DNA of 64,000 bases from Planctomicrobium piriforme (lineage in GTDB: Bacteria; Planctomycetota; Planctomycetia; Planctomycetales; Planctomycetaceae). Positions 44,815 to 55,000 of the stretch are shown here, one piece after another (position 1 is the first letter of the stretch; each line of letters opens with the position of its first letter). The position numbers were made by a program, and so were the translations under genes. The notes beneath the pieces were generated by a model. The model did no database searches, was not told the origin of the DNA, and was given only the letters and a program-made list of their open reading frames with translations. The stretch spans positions 1-64,000 of the forward strand of contig CAMATH010000010.1 of assembly GCA_945860955.1 (NCBI GenBank), given 5' to 3'.

Positions 44815-47800
44815 TCAATCGAGAATCGTGGCGGGAGTCGGTGACTCGACTGGCTGCGGTTGTGCTTGAGGCTGTTGGGGTTGCGGTGGCTGCTGCGGCT
44901 GTTGCGGTTGCTGCTGCCGTTTCAGCACCTTCGACAACCGTTCCTGCAAGACCGTGGCGTCAATCTGGCGGCCGACTTTCATCACCTGCACGCGACTGAC
45001 ATTGGGACGCGCCGCCACGTCGAGCGCCTCAATCATCTCAGTCAGGTCGGACATCATCCCCTCGGCGGCGGAGACAACCAGGGTGTTCGACACATCGTCG
45101 ATGCCAATCGAGAGCATTCCCTTGAGCTTGATGGGCGACTTCTTTTTGTCCCCGGAGTCGTCATCGTCATCGCCCCCTCCCAGGACGTAGGTGTACATGG
45201 AGGGGGTCGGCTTTTTGTTCTTGTCTCCCTCCCCCCCTTTCCCCGCGAGCGCGGGGTCGTTTTCACTCAGGAGGTCGCGGTAGACTTCTTTGATCGCCTC
45301 GGCGATGACCCGCGCTTTGGAGAATTTGATCGTAAACATCCGGGTGATTCGCATCGACTTCTTGTCTTTGGAATCGGGGACGTCGTAAATCGCGATCAGC
45401 TCTTCAATGATCGTCATTTGCTGCGAGTCGGCCCCGGTGACGATGATCGAATTCGAATCGGTGTCGGCGATGAATTTCAGCGGCCGGCGTTTTGATAACC
45501 GTTTCCGTTCCTCCTTTTTCGAATTCATTCCGTTCGCCCAAAAGGGACCGTAAAAATCGTTCTGGGAGTTCTTCTTCTCTTTCTCTTTCTCCGTGAAGAA
45601 ATCCTTGAGGTTCTGCGCGACTCCCCAGGCCCAGGTGGAGTTGTGCTTCATCTTGAAAATCTTGTAGTCACGACGGATCGGGGCCAGCTTCGAAACCATG
45701 TCTTCCAACTGGTCGAGCGCTGCCGTGTCGTCTGACTGAATCACCAGCCGACCGTCCGGGCCCTGGAACACCCGCACGGGAGAGGGATCATCCGTCGGTC
45801 GAGGTGTGGAAGAACGGCGACGGGTGGTCGGTGGCGGGGGGCTGTCGTCGAACTCGTCGACTTCGGTTTCTTCCGGCGGCAGTTCCACGCGTTTTTTCGG
45901 TTTATCGCGTGCTGGCGGCGGGACTTCTTCGGGTTGGTCGGCAAATTCGGGTTGAAGTTCGTCACGTTGAGAAACCGCGATGAACTTCGCGTTCTCGTCG
46001 CGGAGATCGACCAGTCGGTGTTGGGCACCAAGCGGCACAGAGCCAGCCTGGGGAACATCACGGTTGCTACCGACCCGCTCCACCGACCCGGAACGCCGTC
46101 CCGCCGCCGGCGTCGTGCCCCGCGCGGGCTGTCGGCGGCGGGGAGATTCCGCTGGTGGCTCTGGCGGGTCAGCGGCCTCATCGTCGGCTTCGTCTTGGAC
46201 ATCGACCTCCAGCGGATTGGGAGAGACGCCGGGCCAGGCACGTTTCAGCCGTTTGAGGAATTCGGCCGCCTCGTCGGGCGAAATGCTCTCAATGACACGT
46301 CGGCGGGAGGCGCTCGCCCCTTCCGCGGGGATTTCTCCCAGCTTCACGAGCAGCTTTTCGACTTCCTGCAATTCGATTTCATTGGCCCACAGAAGCAGCC
46401 GGTTGTTTTCGGTGTCGGCGTCGACGCGGAATTTTTTTTGCTTCGCACCGGACTGCCCGCCCCCTTGACCGTAATAGAACACGAATGGGTTGTAATTCTG
46501 CTGGTCGTCCCCTTTGTCATCTCCCGCCATCATGAATTCGATCGTCCCCGCGACATAGTCGGCCTCGAGCCGACGCAATCGAACCACTTCGAATTTGCGG
46601 TCGCTCCCGTCGAGTTTTTCGATGAGCTGCTTCACGATCACGTGATCGGCCAGCGCCCCATGCACGATCAATGACCGGTTTTTCTTGTCCACCTGGAGCC
46701 GCGTCGTCGGTTCCAGTCCTCCCAACTCTCGCAGCATTTTGACGATCGGTTCGGGATCGATGCTCGTCAGCCGATAAACTCGCATCCGTGACATGGTCTG
46801 CAGTAGCGACGGATTCTCACTCGGCTGGTCGATGACTTCGATCGCCTCGGAAATTGTCGCCAAGTGATCGGCCGACGCGTTGACCAGCAGGGTGTTTTCG
46901 CGGGCGTTCACCACCATGTGGACCTTGGGTGGCCCCTTCGCTCCGGGCTGAGCGGCGGCGGCCTGCGAGGCGGCAAGGGCCTGCGCCTGCACCTGTTGGA
47001 GCATCTGAATTTGCCCCATCATTTCGGGACCGGTCGATTCGCTCATCGCGTGGGCGGCCGCCGAGATGGGGTCTTCGGTCAAGCCCAGCAAGCCTTCAAT
47101 CTGTCGTTTGACCTCGTCGGCCCGCACATGCTTCAGGCGGAACGGTTTCACGAGTCGCTTTCGGCCGTTATTCGATTGCTCCTCCCGCAGCAGCGTCTGC
47201 ATGTCACGCAGATTCACGACCGCGTCAATCGCCTCCAGCCGGTTGGTTGCTTTCAGTGAGGTCAACTTGCCATTCGGACTCATCAGTGGCTTGAGTTCCT
47301 CGATCGTGGTCTCGGCCATCAACCAGTCGAGCGGAAACGAAATCTTGACGAACTCATGCGGATCGCGTTCGGAAAGTTCTTCCGGACGAACCCGCGGCAC
47401 CAAACTGGGATCGAGCTTTTTCGTGTTGACCAACGTCAACACTTCGCCATCCCGCAGCAGAGTGAATCCCCGGTCGAGAAGATGTCGGTTGATCACGTCG
47501 CGGGCTTCTCGAATCGTGTAGCTGCGCTGCGTCTTCAGATTCAAAAAGTCGCCGGGGAGTTCCTGCCAGTCGAGACTCATCTCCGAAATCTCGGCGAGCC
47601 AGTCCAACACCCCCAGCCAGGGCTGACCATGAAAATTGAATTTGACGCGTCCCTCTTTATCGGGACGTATCTGGAGTTCTTTGGGATCGGCAGGGGTCGA
47701 GGGTTTGTCGGGACGGGTGATTGGTTTTGCCGTCTCGCCGGCTGGTTTCGCTTCTGCCTTCTTTTTCTCCTCCTCTGCCTTCCTCTTTTCTTCTTCTGAT

Positions 47801-48051
47801 TTCGCCGCGTCCGGTTTCGCCTCTTCCGTTGCTGCTTCCGGCTTTGGTTCCTCCGCCACGGGGCCCGCCGGCTTTAACAGTTCGTGAGCCCGTCGCACGG
47901 CGTCCTGCGGGCCAGGTTGAATCTGCCCGAACGCAGTTCGCTCAATGGGAACACCGACCACCAGGAGAATCCCAGCAGCCAACCAGCAAGCTGCCCAGGG
48001 AATTCTCCCCGCAGCTCGAAAGCGTTTCGGAATTGGCATCAACGGATTCAT
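44815..48051 (-). CDS. Large protein with repeated secretin N-type (NolW-like) domains, no barrel
   Basis: 1078 residues from the ATG at 48051 (signal or anchor AACWLAAGILLVVGVPIERT). Residues about 60-130 are Glu/Lys/Ala-rich. At least four NolW/N3-like modules follow, each an alpha-beta unit ending in a pattern such as DKKNRSLIVHGALADHVIVK, ADTENNRLLLWANEIELQEV, ADTDSNSIIVTGADSQQMTI or GIDDVSNTLVVSAAEGMMSD. A Pro/Glu/Arg-rich linker splits them at about 690-790. The C-terminus is a Gln/Pro run. True secretins have these modules before a conserved C-terminal barrel; that barrel is absent. A periplasmic ring-like or scaffold role is inferred. First gene of the operon with an ABC permease and a DUF1501 protein. 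Confidence 0.8.
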   Translation of the reverse strand: MNPLMPIPKRFRAAGRIPWAACWLAAGILLVVGVPIERTAFGQIQPGPQDAVRRAHELLKPAGPVAEEPKPEAATEEAKPDAAKSEEEKRKAEEEKKKAEAKPAGETAKPITRPDKPSTPADPKELQIRPDKEGRVKFNFHGQPWLGVLDWLAEISEMSLDWQELPGDFLNLKTQRSYTIREARDVINRHLLDRGFTLLRDGEVLTLVNTKKLDPSLVPRVRPEELSERDPHEFVKISFPLDWLMAETTIEELKPLMSPNGKLTSLKATNRLEAIDAVVNLRDMQTLLREEQSNNGRKRLVKPFRLKHVRADEVKRQIEGLLGLTEDPISAAAHAMSESTGPEMMGQIQMLQQVQAQALAASQAAAAQPGAKGPPKVHMVVNARENTLLVNASADHLATISEAIEVIDQPSENPSLLQTMSRMRVYRLTSIDPEPIVKMLRELGGLEPTTRLQVDKKNRSLIVHGALADHVIVKQLIEKLDGSDRKFEVVRLRRLEADYVAGTIEFMMAGDDKGDDQQNYNPFVFYYGQGGGQSGAKQKKFRVDADTENNRLLLWANEIELQEVEKLLVKLGEIPAEGASASRRRVIESISPDEAAEFLKRLKRAWPGVSPNPLEVDVQDEADDEAADPPEPPAESPRRRQPARGTTPAAGRRSGSVERVGSNRDVPQAGSVPLGAQHRLVDLRDENAKFIAVSQRDELQPEFADQPEEVPPPARDKPKKRVELPPEETEVDEFDDSPPPPTTRRRSSTPRPTDDPSPVRVFQGPDGRLVIQSDDTAALDQLEDMVSKLAPIRRDYKIFKMKHNSTWAWGVAQNLKDFFTEKEKEKKNSQNDFYGPFWANGMNSKKEERKRLSKRRPLKFIADTDSNSIIVTGADSQQMTIIEELIAIYDVPDSKDKKSMRITRMFTIKFSKARVIAEAIKEVYRDLLSENDPALAGKGGEGDKNKKPTPSMYTYVLGGGDDDDDSGDKKKSPIKLKGMLSIGIDDVSNTLVVSAAEGMMSDLTEMIEALDVAARPNVSRVQVMKVGRQIDATVLQERLSKVLKRQQQPQQPQQPPQPQQPQAQPQPVESPTPATILD

Positions 48052-48400
48052 CAGCGTCTGACCGGGCAGGACGACAACAATTCGATTGGCGACGACCAAT
48101 CTCCAGTGACCGTGGACGGACGACACGCGGCGTGGTACGCCAGCGACTCGCACCGAGCGCTGTCGCGGCGCACGGGGAGCGTTGTGGAGAACCGGGTCCG
48201 TCCATCGTACCAGATTCGCCACGCCAGACATTTTGTTTGAGGGGAACTGCTGACGACAAGGGCAGTTTTTGTTTCTTGTGGTAATTTCTGCCGACTTTGT
48301 CGACCAATTCGGTCGTCCCGGATCGGATTGCGAAGCCCCGTGTCAGCCGATAGACTCGCGAACGTTGATCCGTCCATCGCGCAACGATCGGAGTTTTTCC
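48052..48400. other. Divergent region between the secretin-N gene and the oxidoreductase gene
   Basis: No gene supported. A hairpin AACTGC/GCAGTT (48245-48267) followed by TTTGTTT lies about 130 bases before the oxidoreductase start. It resembles a weak plus-strand terminator or attenuator. Confidence 0.45.
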
Positions 48401-49979: not shown

Positions 49980-51473
49980 ATGTCTCAGCCGACGAATCCT
50001 TCGGCTTCCCGCTGGACTCCCCCCCGTGAACAGCACGACTGGGGAGCCGCCCTGCTGACCTCCCCTTGGCTCTGGGGAGCGGCGATGACGGTTGGGTTCT
50101 ACCAGGCGATTCCCCTGTTCCCGTCGTGGAACACGTTCTTCGACCGGTACTTCTGCCAGCACTGGATTCTCTACACCGAAACCGCCGGTGCCTTTTTCGG
50201 GCTGGCGATCCTGATGAAAAAACTCATCGGGCTGTTCGCCGAGCGCAGGGCGTTTGAATCTTTCTCGCTTGACCAGGTTCACTTTGAACCGCATGTCCCC
50301 TCGGAAACCCGGGCTCTCTCAGTTGCCCAGTCTGTGTCAGCCGCCCCCGCTTCAATGCTGCGAACGCAGTGGCTGAAGCGAATCATCCACGTTTGCGAAT
50401 ACGTGCTGAATCGCCGGTCGGCTCAGGGGCTGGAAGAACACTTGCGCTACCGGGCCGATCTGGCGCTCGAAAGCCTGACTGGCAGCTTCGCGTTCCTCCG
50501 TACGATCACCTGGGCCATTCCGATTTTGGGGTTCCTCGGAACGGTCATCGGGATCACGATGTCGCTGTCGAGTCTCAAATTCGATCCGAATCAACTGGCT
50601 GAGTCGTTCGAGCAGGCTCTGGTCGGGCTGGGTGTGGCGTTTGATACCACCGCCCTCGCTCTGAGCCTCTCGCTGGGGCTGGTGTTTGGAACGTACATGG
50701 TGGAACGTGCCGAAGGGGACGTCCTGGGTCGCGTGGAGGAATTGGGGGTCGCCCGCCTGGCGCCGCTGCTCCCCGCAACCGACGAGTCGGTCACCCCGCT
50801 GGCCGCAGCAGAGACTCAGGCCGCCAGCCACCTGCTCGAACGGACCGAGTCGCTGGTCAACTGGCAGACGGAAATGTGGCAGTCGGCCCTCGAAGGGATG
50901 CGCACCCGCTGGATTGAGTCGGCCGATTCTCAACAGGGTCGATTCAACGAGGCGCTGCAGCAGGGAATGCTGACCACCCTCACGGGACACGCCCAGGACT
51001 TGCAATCGGTCCGTGGGGAATTTCTCGAAGGTTTCCGCTCGGTTGCCCAGGAACTGTCTCGCGTCGTGGTCGCATTGCAGACGTCGACCGCACTGGCCCA
51101 ATCGCAGTTTGGCGAACAGGTGGCGTCGACCTGGAAACAGCTCGAAACGCACCTCAACGGTGTTCACGCTCAGCAGCAGACGTTTCTCGCCGACGCCTCC
51201 CGGCTGCTGGGAGAGTCGATGTCGGGCTGGCACGGCGATCTCGAACGATCGACTTCCGCCATGCAGGCGCAGCTCACCGAATTGCGGCAACAGTCGCAGC
51301 TCTTGCTCTCTCTGTCGGAGCAGACGGGAGAACTCGAACAATTGCAGTCGACTCTCACGAACAATCTGCAGACCGTGCGAACGCTCAACGCTTTCGAAGA
51401 AACGATTCAGAGCCTGAACGCGGCGATTCACCTGCTCTCGGCCCGTTCCAAGGGCTTTTCGGCCGCCGCCTGA
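49980..51473 (+). CDS. MotA/TolQ/ExbB-type proton channel with long coiled tail
   Basis: 497 residues from the ATG at 49980 with GGAGAA seven bases upstream; an ATG at 49950 is in frame but has no binding site. Four predicted helices: 23-45, 62-86, 173-198 and 213-239. The last two carry the family core, WAIPILGFLGTVIGITMSLS and VGLGVAFDTTALALSLSLGL, which line the ion path in TolQ/ExbB. Residues 250-490 are a long, Gln/Ser/Leu-rich predicted coiled tail, facing the cytoplasm by analogy with TolQ, and much longer than in TolQ. It is the first of three packed genes. The two next genes encode single-pass proteins resembling ExbD/TolR. Function unknown. Confidence 0.88.
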   Translation: MSQPTNPSASRWTPPREQHDWGAALLTSPWLWGAAMTVGFYQAIPLFPSWNTFFDRYFCQHWILYTETAGAFFGLAILMKKLIGLFAERRAFESFSLDQVHFEPHVPSETRALSVAQSVSAAPASMLRTQWLKRIIHVCEYVLNRRSAQGLEEHLRYRADLALESLTGSFAFLRTITWAIPILGFLGTVIGITMSLSSLKFDPNQLAESFEQALVGLGVAFDTTALALSLSLGLVFGTYMVERAEGDVLGRVEELGVARLAPLLPATDESVTPLAAAETQAASHLLERTESLVNWQTEMWQSALEGMRTRWIESADSQQGRFNEALQQGMLTTLTGHAQDLQSVRGEFLEGFRSVAQELSRVVVALQTSTALAQSQFGEQVASTWKQLETHLNGVHAQQQTFLADASRLLGESMSGWHGDLERSTSAMQAQLTELRQQSQLLLSLSEQTGELEQLQSTLTNNLQTVRTLNAFEETIQSLNAAIHLLSARSKGFSAAA

Positions 51474-51506
51474 TTCGGCCCCGTTCCTTCTTTGTGAGTC
51501 GCAGCC

Positions 51507-53888
51507 ATGAGGCGGTCGTCCTCGCCGCAGAATTCGGTCTCGCTCTTTCCGTTCCTCGCGGTGCTGATTTGCACCATGGGGGCGCTGGTGCTGTTGCTGT
51601 TGGGATTGACGCAGTCGATGCGAACCCAGGCGGCGGCGGCGGCAACCCAAGCTTCCACCTCCGATCAGCCCGCGTTGCCACTTGCGTCGATCCGTTCGAT
51701 CCGTCCGCCAGCACCACCGCTGCCGGGCGATTTCGATCACGAAGCGCTGTCCGCCGTCCGGGCGGATGCCGAGGCGAAACGCGAGTCGCATTGGCGCGCG
51801 ATTCTGGCCAAGGCGATCGCCGACCGGGACGCCGTTCAGGAAGAACTGAACCGCCGTCAGGCCCGGCGGGCGCAGCTTGAAGCCGACCTGAAGGAACTCG
51901 AGAATCGACTCGACGCCGAGGCCGGGCAGATCAACGCGGCCCGCGTCGCGGTCGAAGTCTCGGCAGAGCAGGAACAGGATCTCGCGCTGGAACACCGCCG
52001 ACTGAGCGAGCAGATCGCGCTGACCGAAAACAAGATCGATCAGACAAAGCTCCGGCAGTCAACCGCTCCGAATGAATACGCGATTCTCGCGTACGATGGA
52101 CGTTCGGGAACGCAACGCCGGCCGATCTACATCGAATGCACCGAGTCGGGGTATCGGTTCTATCCCGAGAATATTTTCGTTGGCGCGAACGAACTCAAGG
52201 GGGGATCGGTTAAGTACAACGCGCTCGTGACCGGAACCCGCGCACTGCTCCGGTATTGGACGCTGAAACACGCCCGCGATCCCAAGAGGTTCCATCGCCC
52301 CTACGTGTTACTGATCGTTCGCCCCGGGGGAGTCTACGCCTACGACATGGCTCGCCAGTTGCTTTCCCGACTGGAAACCAACTTCGGTTACGAGCTGGTT
52401 GAAGACGACATCGTTCTCCAGAAGCTGCCTCCCGATGCGCAGTCGGTCGCGGTCCTGAAGGAAGCCATCGCGCTGGCGGTCGAGATGGCCGAGAAGCCCC
52501 CCGAGGCTTCTTCCAATTCGGGTCGCGAGATTCAGACCTGGGATGAAGAACGCGGACAGCCTTCAGGATCGGCGGGCAACAAATCGACCGCCAAATCCGG
52601 CGAAGGCCGCGGACCGGGCGATGGTCGCGGGAAGGGAGTCGGCGGTGATGTGGGGGGCGCATCCGGTGCTGTGGCGGAATCCACAGGTCAACGCAGGGGT
52701 TCCAAGGCGGGCGGAATTCCCGATACCTTTCACGAACCAAACTCAATCACGCCCGGAACACGTCCCGAAGGGGGCATGGCCGCGCGAGCCGGCACGGGCA
52801 ACAGCAACGCCTACGGCAACGGCAACGGGAACAGCATCGGGAACGGGAACGCCAGTGCCTACGGCGGAGGGGGCGGCAACGGCATGAGCGGTCAGGGGGG
52901 CGCTGGCGGTCGCGCCCGCCCGGCGGATCTGCGTGGCGGACGCACTGTTGGCGACGATGCCGTCGATCAGCCCCTCGCGTCGGGCGACGTTGTCGCCGAT
53001 GGGGAGACCGGCGGATCGGCTCCCGGCCGGTTGAAGTCATTGGAAGTCGGTGGGACGCAATCGCCTTCCGACAATCAACGTGGGGCGACGCCGTTACGGG
53101 GTTTTCCTGGCACAACCGAAAGACCCGGTGGAAAGCCGGCCGTCGCAGACGACGGGGCAACCCCCGAGTCGGGTGCCAATGTCACCGGCGGCCCGACTGG
53201 ACCGCGACGGCGATCGTCCAAGTTGAAGGAACCTGTGGGGGCCCCTCCCGCCGATGCGGTCGGCTACGCCGAGATCAATCCCGGCGAAGGGGACATGAAC
53301 GAAGAGTCGGCCGGCGGGACGAAGTCGGCCACTGCGGACGAAAGGCCACCGCAACGACTTTTTCCGCAAGAGAAGCCACTCAGTGAAGAAGAAGGTCTGC
53401 CGACCCGCGGTTCGGGGGGCGCACGGGGACAGCCTTCCAATGAACGCCAACCGATACACAAGCACGAATTCGAAACCGAAGAATCGGTTGGTGGTACCGG
53501 CCAGTCGTTACCCGGCCCCCGTGGGCCGCGCGGTGGCGGGAACGGCGGAGACCGCAATCTGATCGGTTTGGAACGTAAGATCCCCATACGGGTGGAACGC
53601 TATCGGGTCGTCATCGGCGACGAAGATCTGATCGAAATCCCAGTCTTGAAGAAGACCAGGAACGACGCGCTGGTATCTCAAGTGACCGGCGCGATGCGAC
53701 AGGTGATTGACTCGTGGGGACCTGCCCCCCGGAAATTCTACTGGATACCGGCGGTCCGCTTCGAAGTGACAACCGCAGGCAACCCCGTCTATGAACGGCT
53801 GCGCGGGGCGTTTGAACGGCAGAAGGTCAAATCGACCGTCGACTACGTCGAGAATTCCGACAAGACTCCCCGACAGGAGGCCCGGTAA
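51507..53888 (+). CDS. Single-pass ExbD-like membrane protein with Ala in place of the proton-site Asp
   Basis: 793 residues. One membrane helix at about 12-35 (SLFPFLAVLICTMGALVLLL). Compared with the next gene product (SFLDVLSNIVGILIILIV), FL-x-VL and the following Gly-x-Leu align, and Ala18 falls where that protein has Asp19. Coiled coil at about 80-185. A globular domain at about 190-330 has RRPIYIECTESGYRFYPENI and RPYVLLIVRPGGVYAYDMAR. Residues about 350-680 are Gly/Ser/Asn/Pro-rich low complexity (GNGNGNSIGNGNASAYGGGG). A second globular piece ends the protein (LVSQVTGAMRQVIDSWGPAP). Probably periplasmic beyond the helix. It begins 33 bp after the channel gene and its stop shares an A with the next ATG (TAATG). 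Confidence 0.8.
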   Translation: MRRSSSPQNSVSLFPFLAVLICTMGALVLLLLGLTQSMRTQAAAAATQASTSDQPALPLASIRSIRPPAPPLPGDFDHEALSAVRADAEAKRESHWRAILAKAIADRDAVQEELNRRQARRAQLEADLKELENRLDAEAGQINAARVAVEVSAEQEQDLALEHRRLSEQIALTENKIDQTKLRQSTAPNEYAILAYDGRSGTQRRPIYIECTESGYRFYPENIFVGANELKGGSVKYNALVTGTRALLRYWTLKHARDPKRFHRPYVLLIVRPGGVYAYDMARQLLSRLETNFGYELVEDDIVLQKLPPDAQSVAVLKEAIALAVEMAEKPPEASSNSGREIQTWDEERGQPSGSAGNKSTAKSGEGRGPGDGRGKGVGGDVGGASGAVAESTGQRRGSKAGGIPDTFHEPNSITPGTRPEGGMAARAGTGNSNAYGNGNGNSIGNGNASAYGGGGGNGMSGQGGAGGRARPADLRGGRTVGDDAVDQPLASGDVVADGETGGSAPGRLKSLEVGGTQSPSDNQRGATPLRGFPGTTERPGGKPAVADDGATPESGANVTGGPTGPRRRSSKLKEPVGAPPADAVGYAEINPGEGDMNEESAGGTKSATADERPPQRLFPQEKPLSEEEGLPTRGSGGARGQPSNERQPIHKHEFETEESVGGTGQSLPGPRGPRGGGNGGDRNLIGLERKIPIRVERYRVVIGDEDLIEIPVLKKTRNDALVSQVTGAMRQVIDSWGPAPRKFYWIPAVRFEVTTAGNPVYERLRGAFERQKVKSTVDYVENSDKTPRQEAR

Positions 53889-55000
53889 TGCGTCGTCGAT
53901 CCGCAGTGAGTGACCCCGGGTTCGGGTCCGATTCGTTTCTCGACGTTCTTTCGAACATCGTCGGCATTCTGATCATCCTGATCGTGATGGCCGGGATGCA
54001 GCTCAGCCGCACACCGTTGCCGTCGAAAGGCGTTCCGTCCACCACACCGGACTCCATCGCTGTCGTCGACAGCGATGCCGAAGAGGAACCGTCCGCAGAC
54101 GACTCGCCCACTGTCGCGGTCGCGGAACCTCCTTCACTTCCCGATTTGGAACAGCCTCCCGCCGATCTCGCCCGCTCGATGGCGGAACTCGCACAAGAGC
54201 GCCGGCGGTTGGAAGAAGAAGATCGAAAAGCCCAGGCGGCGCTCGCCGAGCTGTTGGCCCGACACGATGACGCCCAGACGGAACTCGCGTCGGTCAACCA
54301 GGGGGCGGTGTCTCATCAGCAGGAATTGAAGGACAAGAAGCACAGACTCCAGGCCTTGAAGCGGGAGATTGGCGAAAAGCGGGAGAAACTCTCGGGACTG
54401 CTCGCCGACTTTGAGGAAGTCGAAACCTCTCAGCCCGCCGCCAAAACAATCAAGCACCGCCTGACTCCCGTCAGTCAGGAAGTGACGGGGGAGGAACTGC
54501 ACTTTCGGCTCAGCGGTGGCCGGGTGAGTTTTGTGCCATTGACTGAACTGCTGGAACGGGTCAAGCAGCAGGTGGAACGCCGGCGCGACCTCGCGGCGGC
54601 GCGCGGCGGCTACAAGGGGATCGTCGGTCCGATCGAAGGCTACTCGCTGGAGTTCGTCATTGAAACGCGACGGATGACACCGCATGAAGAACGTGCCAAT
54701 GGAATGCGCGAGGGATACAGCCTCGAGCTGTCCCGCTGCATGGTGATTTCCGACCCGAACTATCAGGGAGAAACCGTCGAGGAGGCGCTGAAACGGGGGT
54801 CACGGTTCGCGATGGCGTTGCGAACCGCATCGAGCGGCGCGGCACTGACGTTCTGGACCTATCCTGACAGTTTCGCACAGTACCGAAAACTGCAGGAAGC
54901 GGGACATGCCGAGGGATTCCTGGTCGCGGGCCGCCCACTCCCGTACGGCCAGAACATCATGGGTGACCGAAAACTCGGAACCAAGTCGGCAGGGCAGTAG
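53888..55000 (+). CDS. Single-pass ExbD/TolR-like membrane protein
   Basis: 370 residues. The membrane helix at about 17-38 begins SFLDVLSNIVGILIILIVMA. Asp19 sits where ExbD/TolR have their proton-carrying Asp (pattern P-L-I-D-V). An acidic Pro-rich linker, a coiled coil at about 95-185 (ARSMAELAQERRRLEEEDRK) and a globular domain at about 200-355 follow. That domain ends TFWTYPDSFAQYRKLQEAGH, AEGFLVAGRPLPYG. No OmpA-type peptidoglycan-binding domain is visible. Translation is coupled to the preceding gene by TAATG. Predicted partner of the channel protein at 49980. Confidence 0.82.
   Translation: MRRRSAVSDPGFGSDSFLDVLSNIVGILIILIVMAGMQLSRTPLPSKGVPSTTPDSIAVVDSDAEEEPSADDSPTVAVAEPPSLPDLEQPPADLARSMAELAQERRRLEEEDRKAQAALAELLARHDDAQTELASVNQGAVSHQQELKDKKHRLQALKREIGEKREKLSGLLADFEEVETSQPAAKTIKHRLTPVSQEVTGEELHFRLSGGRVSFVPLTELLERVKQQVERRRDLAAARGGYKGIVGPIEGYSLEFVIETRRMTPHEERANGMREGYSLELSRCMVISDPNYQGETVEEALKRGSRFAMALRTASSGAALTFWTYPDSFAQYRKLQEAGHAEGFLVAGRPLPYGQNIMGDRKLGTKSAGQ

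Follow-up and report, generated by a model that had tools for sequence, protein, structure and literature searches.

We describe a three-gene system, A, B1 and B2, at positions 49980-55000 of a 64,000-nucleotide stretch of Planctomicrobium piriforme DNA (contig CAMATH010000010.1, positions 1-64,000, forward strand; hereafter the window). A is a channel subunit of the MotA/TolQ/ExbB family, and B1 and B2 are single-pass proteins with matching membrane helices, in which B2 has an Asp and B1 an Ala at the same place. This one-acid inequality is a conserved property that goes with the type of channel and is not a quirk of one genome. Sequence comparisons lead us to lean, on balance, towards a model in which A, B1 and B2 form one proton motor of the 5:2 type, with two different axle helices inside the A ring and a single proton site.

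Matching helices and one acidic slot

The three genes and the two codons at issue lie on the forward strand:
49980..51473, +: gene A, MotA/TolQ/ExbB-family channel subunit of 497 amino acids (aa), with a helical C-terminal tail of ~255 aa (PF01618, E 3.7e-10)
51507..53888, +: gene B1, single-pass axle-type protein of 793 aa, helix without an acid
53888..55000, +: gene B2, single-pass axle-type protein of 370 aa with the putative proton-site Asp
51558..51560, +: codon of B1 Ala18, the slot aligned with B2 Asp19
53942..53944, +: codon of B2 Asp19, the sole charge in the membrane helix

The genes are co-directional, with 33 nt between A and B1 and an ATG of B2 that overlaps the B1 stop by one base. 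The triad, described as tightly packed in an earlier reading of the window (the sequence-only reading), is real. A-B1-B2 is the dominant gene order among the loci compared. Wherever both were located, the B1 and B2 genes lie side by side, in most cases with ends that overlap or almost do.

Protein A falls within Pfam MotA_ExbB (PF01618) at 40.1 bits against a cut-off of 22.9. Hydropathy gives three strong helices (residues 69-87, 176-194 and 214-241), and a candidate fourth (about 29-48) lies under the threshold used, which leaves the proposed four-helix channel plausible only. T188 and T224 are invariant in 22 aligned A proteins; we take them to line the pore and to correspond to the Thr positions of ExbB.

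The B1 helix reads FLAVL...GAL, with Ala at slot residue 18, and the B2 helix FLDVL...GIL, with Asp at slot residue 19. A profile-profile comparison places the two in register (probability 97.1, E 6e-11, B1 columns 2-51 against B2 columns 3-52). By this measure the membrane helices are homologous in register and B1 Ala18 occupies the place of B2 Asp19, in agreement with the earlier claim that the helices align and that B2 alone has the Asp. The B1 helix is itself strongly conserved, with F16, L17, G25 and L27 invariant in 57 sequences.

We followed the slot across loci, genomes, families and genera that are cited below by handles (L, G, f and g numbers). Removal of 17 duplicates by B2 from 120 loci left 103, or 104 rows with the window and 102 without paralogues. 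B1 helices were readable in all but 20 of the 104 rows (contig ends, family f2, or gene off the contig), and the slot in these 84 helices is Ala in 65, Asp in 13, Thr in four and Ser in two, both Ser belonging to a paralogous triad. Among the 102 distinct rows (window included, paralogues excluded), 81 B1-type helices were read, and the slot is Ala or Thr in 69. Within the stretch examined, 67 of these are free of acidic residues, and in the remaining two the sole acid stands at the final position (+18). B2 is uniform: every one of the 93 helices read among the 102 rows carries exactly one charged residue, the Asp at the slot, the other nine rows being six of family f2 without the motif and three that are cut off or unread. 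B2 thus has the helix Asp characteristic of ExbD and TolR, which B1 lacks in the window and in most relatives.

The unequal pair recurs in a paralogous triad found in some genomes, which has a short B1' (about 272 aa) with Ser at the slot in 30/30 and a B2' with Asp in 18/18 of the helices read. Beyond the class, eight weakly matching loci include four Ser/Asp pairs (L403, L404, L407 and L411) and two that are unreadable. In ordinary tandem ExbD pairs both members carry Asp (4/4 pairs read, in two genomes, from 8 loci fetched). The unequal pair is therefore a trait of the wider family of these triads, not of tandem B genes in general. At its N-terminus the paralogous channel (L069:3221-6901; loci L354-L383) also has a stretch that resembles a zinc ribbon (Zn_ribbon_3, E 9e-4, below the cut-off).

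The triad is conserved in Planctomycetia, as a common trait of the class and no accessory island. B2 is present in 51 of 59 relatives; of the eight without it, six belong to family f3 and two are assemblies of the window's genus in a highly fragmented state. In a collection that spans all species, at least 490 of at least 591 candidate stretches were confirmed, and 78 of the best 80 are titled planctomycetes. Of 294 genomes sampled across the phylum, 20, all from the window's family or class, match strongly and nine others weakly, while family member G071 and 245 further genomes, given without names, are unmatched. The search across planctomycetes that the sequence-only reading had proposed finds the triad widely in the class.

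Channel type and the B1 slot

Two codons of A distinguish the window's channel from a second type:
50550..50552, +: A Gly191, in the third helix; the alternative channel type has His
50643..50645, +: A Asp222, in the fourth helix, two residues N-terminal to the conserved Thr224; the alternative type has Asn

The A alignment resolves into a standard type, which is that of the window (Gly191 and Asp222), and an alternative type (His191 and Asn222). Alignments A2 and A3 do not include locus L146, an omission without a principled reason. The alternative channel forms one clade of 15 rows with full Shimodaira-Hasegawa-like approximate likelihood ratio test (SH-aLRT) support and a long stem, and the B2 genes from its loci are scattered among Ala-type relatives. 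It occurs in 27 of 170 family genomes, in nine genera, with G155 holding a remnant with stop codons, and its gene is frequently solitary, with no B1 or B2 beside it.

The B1 slot follows this division. Loci with the standard channel (Gly191 with Asp222, once Gly222) have B1 Ala in 58, Thr in four and Asp in one (L105), that is, Ala or Thr in 62/63, and loci with the His191/Asn222 channel have B1 Asp in 10/11, the last being unread (Fisher p 2e-11, uncorrected for relatedness). We also assembled a family sample of all 27 alternative-channel genomes and 29 hand-picked ones, 54 of the 56 being read (G151 gave no match and G078 was unread). B1 Asp, checked on the B1 frame, occurs in 17 of these 54. 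The 27 alternative-channel genomes divide into 15 with B1 Asp and 12 with Ala; four of the 12 retain the standard channel (G174, G180, G182 and G155, where the alternative type is the remnant) and eight do not. Accordingly, B1 Asp is found in 0/4 family genomes that combine the standard channel with the other type or its remnant, and in 0/23 of the hand-picked genomes with the standard channel only, all of which have Ala.

The sequence-only reading had offered B1 orthologues with Asp, or genes found unlinked, as grounds for giving up its asymmetric built-in pair. Both exist: B1 has Asp in the helices and genomes counted above (13/84 and 17/54), and A lies apart from B1-B2 in several genomes. 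What stands is the invariant Asp of B2, the prevailing Ala or Thr of B1, and a one-acid state that is conserved and recurs in the paralogous triad; what falls is an Asp/Ala difference without exception. The exceptions themselves sit almost wholly on different, decayed or altered channels, which argues for coupling between channel and slot. For the unlinked loci L077 and L078, the alternative channel was predicted and then found.

Altered channels accompany B1 Asp in genus g9 too, where the operon A has lost the Thr and Asp of both pore helices; G011 of this genus also holds an alternative channel, and in G113 none was found. The altered genes (G011:C68:336-1751 and G113:C695:2286-3323) have the pore Thr and Asp replaced and their frames still open, and could possibly supply structural subunits of a mixed ring. 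In genus g63 (L078/G123), the only one known, B1 carries a B2-type helix (SDSFLDVLANMVG), which points to two helices interchangeable in kind; the B1 helix of G069 is of B1 type with Asp (LFQFLD). Family f2 has lost the motif from both B helices in 6/6 loci (L059, L061, L062, L064, L065 and L068), and A was found neither in three whole-searched f2 genomes, which gave distant paralogues only, nor in the six loci fetched. Persistence of B1 and B2 with other helices and no channel found suggests that their periplasmic domains may be useful without a motor.

Several observations weigh against a one-site motor matched to its channel. Eight of the 23 genomes in which the alternative channel is the only intact one keep B1 Ala (G072, G134, G179, G181 and G183-186), so the alternative channel does not force Asp. 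At L105 (G115), B1 has Asp despite a channel that keeps Gly191 and Asp222, although the residues around these two deviate from the consensus. In some genomes A lies apart from B1-B2, and two such loci, L108 and L131, were predicted to have the standard channel and proved to have the alternative. The strict rule that an Asn222/His191 channel means B1 Asp was therefore rejected, being right for two unlinked loci (L077 and L078) and wrong for the other two. The paralogous channel has Asp222 or Asn222 alike, with B1' Ser either way, so residue 222 alone does not set the slot, and two distant relatives (L405 and L408) have Asp/Asp pairs. The f2 B1 helices, though without the motif, have Glu near their start in 6/6. 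Finally, the A, B1 and B2 trees are all quick ones. On the tree of 95 B1 rows, built with the helix omitted, the slot needs 8 changes, and 7 independent pairs can be counted on all branches; well-supported branches give 3, of which an average of 2.7 run in the expected direction and none against, a number that cannot reach p 0.05. Five of the 95 rows, without a channel type, were uncounted in this test, which also excluded the odd channel of L105 and the decayed one of G113.

Taken with these exceptions, comparison of the sequences indicates that B1 Asp goes with a non-standard channel, L105 being the sole exception, and that a non-standard channel does not require Asp. A possible path would lead from genomes with both channels, through the new channel with B1 Ala, to the new channel with B1 Asp, the order of these steps being conjectural.

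Soluble domains, known systems and genomic surroundings

Outside the membrane the three proteins comprise the following parts, given with predicted local distance difference test (pLDDT) values where these come from AlphaFold models:
50703..51470, +: C-terminal tail of A, presumed coiled coil, with the conserved end FEETL-SL-AAVHLLTAR (consensus of the alignment)
51738..52064, +: B1 long helix, residues 78-186, predicted coiled coil (pLDDT about 87-94)
52116..52397, +: B1 domain 1, residues 204-297, b-b-a-b-a-b in the model
52527..53555, +: B1 disordered Gly-rich tether, residues 341-683, 24% Gly (mostly pLDDT under 50)
53562..53846, +: B1 domain 2, residues 686-780, perhaps ExbD-like by structure comparison
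54161..54430, +: B2 long helix, residues 92-181, predicted coiled coil (pLDDT about 90-97)
54494..54964, +: B2 globular domain, residues 203-359; W323, P326, R349 and P350 are among its invariant residues

The B1 model (mean pLDDT 64.9) consists of a membrane helix, a 109-residue helix, two small domains and a disordered tether of ~340 residues. In the B2 model (mean pLDDT 83.6) the membrane helix is followed by a helix of 90 residues and a globular domain. The tail of A presumably lies in the cytoplasm, a side assigned from family topology. B1 domains 1 and 2 are likely duplicates of each other (probability 82, E 1e-5 by profile). Domain 2 superposes on ExbD (8vgd_B) with Z 6.5, root-mean-square deviation 2.8 and 69/72 residues aligned, a score tied with unrelated rows, and its comparison with a planctomycete ExbD profile (sequence obtained from 27/30 loci) gives a probability of 4.5. 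Neither B1 nor B2 has a Pfam domain above cut-off or a match to Pfam ExbD (PF02472) or OmpA at E up to 1, which bears out the earlier statement that both lack an OmpA-type domain. Membership in ExbD by profile was rejected, since both the PF02472 search and the profile comparison failed. Foldseek with the B1 and B2 models returned no match with E under 0.001; the best VIA rows (Z 6.8 for B2, an RNase H-like recombinase domain; Z 7.4 for B1, YqgF) fall in a range that the tool calls common, and the fold listing for the B2 globular domain holds no ExbD row and no convincing match. When the B1 and B2 alignments were searched against sequences of solved structures, the rows shown match coiled-coil stretches only, and PHROGs gave no useful match. 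The claim of the sequence-only reading that the globular parts share no known domain needs qualifying: the end domain of B1 gives a weak ExbD-like match, tied as noted with unrelated rows, and the two B1 domains are likely duplicates.

Among the closest known systems are ExbB-ExbD and TolQ-TolR, the 5:2 motors, with which the triad shares the Pfam family and conserved Thr positions of A and the helix Asp of B2; B1 domain 2 may weakly resemble the ExbD periplasmic fold. The triad differs from them in having two different B proteins, one of them acid-less, no Pfam ExbD match, the B1 tether and the long A tail. In the Myxococcus AglR-AglQ/S motor, too, a single channel protein is combined with two distinct B proteins, but Asp is present in both according to the available part of PMC9389320, whereas one is acid-less here. 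Heterologous pairs of tolR-like and TPH-vWA proteins with a TolQ-like channel have been described, from the PVC group among others, and the vWA pairs have Asp in both members where the triad has it in one (PMC12204202, available part). No acid-less B protein is mentioned in the same part of that paper, which also leaves the residues of the PVC tolR-like pairs unstated. ZorA scores weakly with A, across helices and tail (E 8.3e-8, 29 bits). Membership in Zorya was rejected, as there is no match to ZorB in B1 or B2 and none to OmpA at E up to 1; unlike a Zorya defence island, the triad has its B2 in 51 of 59 relatives and has no Zorya gene among its five flanking genes. ExbD1/ExbD2 naming is common in the accessible literature, and in the available part of the mBio 2025 stator survey (PMC12505986) the single planctomycete passage met concerns flagellar stators. 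In the open-licence literature, mostly as listings and abstracts, we found no report of a conserved acid-less B subunit or of this triad.

The statement that no TonB, Tol-Pal, Zorya or flagellar gene lies near the triad holds for the five flanking genes scanned (44.8-61.5 kb), among which we found no TonB, TolA, TolB, Pal, Zorya or flagellar gene and no vWA or TPR gene; open reading frames at 1-44 kb of the window were listed without identification. The five encode a Secretin_N protein, a Gfo/Idh oxidoreductase, SelO, an esterase/DUF6807 protein and a DUF1549/DUF1553 protein. The first (44815-48231, - strand) is a 1,138-aa protein with four Secretin_N matches that starts ~1.7 kb upstream of the triad, and it is absent from the neighbour families common to the compared loci. 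Conserved neighbours were considered as motor parts. The clear case was a divergent gene for a conserved protein of ~1,350 aa without a Pfam or NCBIfam match, which lies beside the triad in 30 of 103 loci, many of which end earlier (L138:163-4128, - strand; L033:11613-15530; G000:C1:50564-54517, L323). It was found in 52 of the 59 relatives, in none of the seven f2 genomes and in six f3 genomes, and we rejected it as a part of the triad because f3 is where the triad was not found. The window's own genome (G000) also has ten matches to the ordinary ExbD family, on several contigs and several as tandem pairs, which suggests that planctomycetes hold many such motors.

A candidate hetero-axle motor and its rivals

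In the 5:2 rotary model, as given in the available part of PMC9389320, the two axle chains are equivalent and the ring advances in 36-degree steps, one per ion. The in-register homology of the two helices, the conserved single acid at loci with the standard channel, the same inequality in the paralogue, the loss of the motif in f2, where no A was found, and B1 Asp in lineages with an exchanged or decayed channel together favour a hetero-axle version of such a motor. A, B1 and B2 would assemble as 5:1:1, with B2 supplying the single proton-binding Asp and B1 a matching helix without an acid. One site would mean one proton per 72-degree advance, in place of two Asp and 36 degrees, and the ring would always work against the same axle partner, giving a fixed built-in polarity. 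The Gly-rich tether and end domain of B1 probably carry force to, or anchor the motor at, the cell wall or outer membrane, and the A tail probably meets a cytoplasmic partner.

The foremost alternative is that five A and two B2 form an ordinary motor, with B1 bound alongside the ring to transduce force as an accessory, in the manner of TonB or TolA. B1 has the layout for this, a helix followed by the ~340-residue Gly-rich tether and an end domain, and side binding of TolA and TonB is described in the available part of PMC12204202. Against it, the B1 helix is homologous to that of B2 and in register with it, has Asp exactly at the proton slot in lineages whose channel differs, and is of B2 type in one genus. 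The TonB/TolA motif for motor binding has a His according to the same part of PMC12204202, and the examined helices of Ala/Thr type contain none. We regard this alternative as unlikely. Less probable again is an arrangement in which B1 and B2 form separate homodimeric motors with A, the B1 homodimer being a proton-dead regulatory or structural form. Both proteins have modelled long coiled-coil helices able to dimerise, and whether the Agl B proteins form hetero- or homodimers is unsettled in the available part of PMC9389320. Against separate homodimers, the B1 and B2 genes are adjacent and mostly overlap or nearly so, and the B1 slot follows the channel type, which would be needless in a dead complex. 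Decay of a tandem ExbD pair, with the B1 acid removed by relaxed constraint, is very improbable: f2 demonstrates that the motif can be lost, but the B1 helix is strongly conserved, its slot is Ala or Thr and not random, and ordinary tandem ExbD pairs are Asp/Asp in 4/4.

The hetero-axle motor may be taken one step further. The pairing would be obligate, with one helix proton-dead, and lineages would have toggled repeatedly between a one-acid state (Asp222) and a two-acid state (Asn222/His191) by channel exchange. We hold this fuller version more tentatively, at a little short of an even chance.

If the motor reading is true, the planctomycete envelope would gain a further energised machine, so far uncharacterised, which 51 of the 59 relatives searched possess. 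The triad would also provide a conserved natural one-site motor together with two-site relatives and matching channel variants: the lineages would offer ready-made one-site and two-site versions in which 72- and 36-degree stepping could be compared. Whether one proton site suffices, and what the second site does, would then be directly testable.

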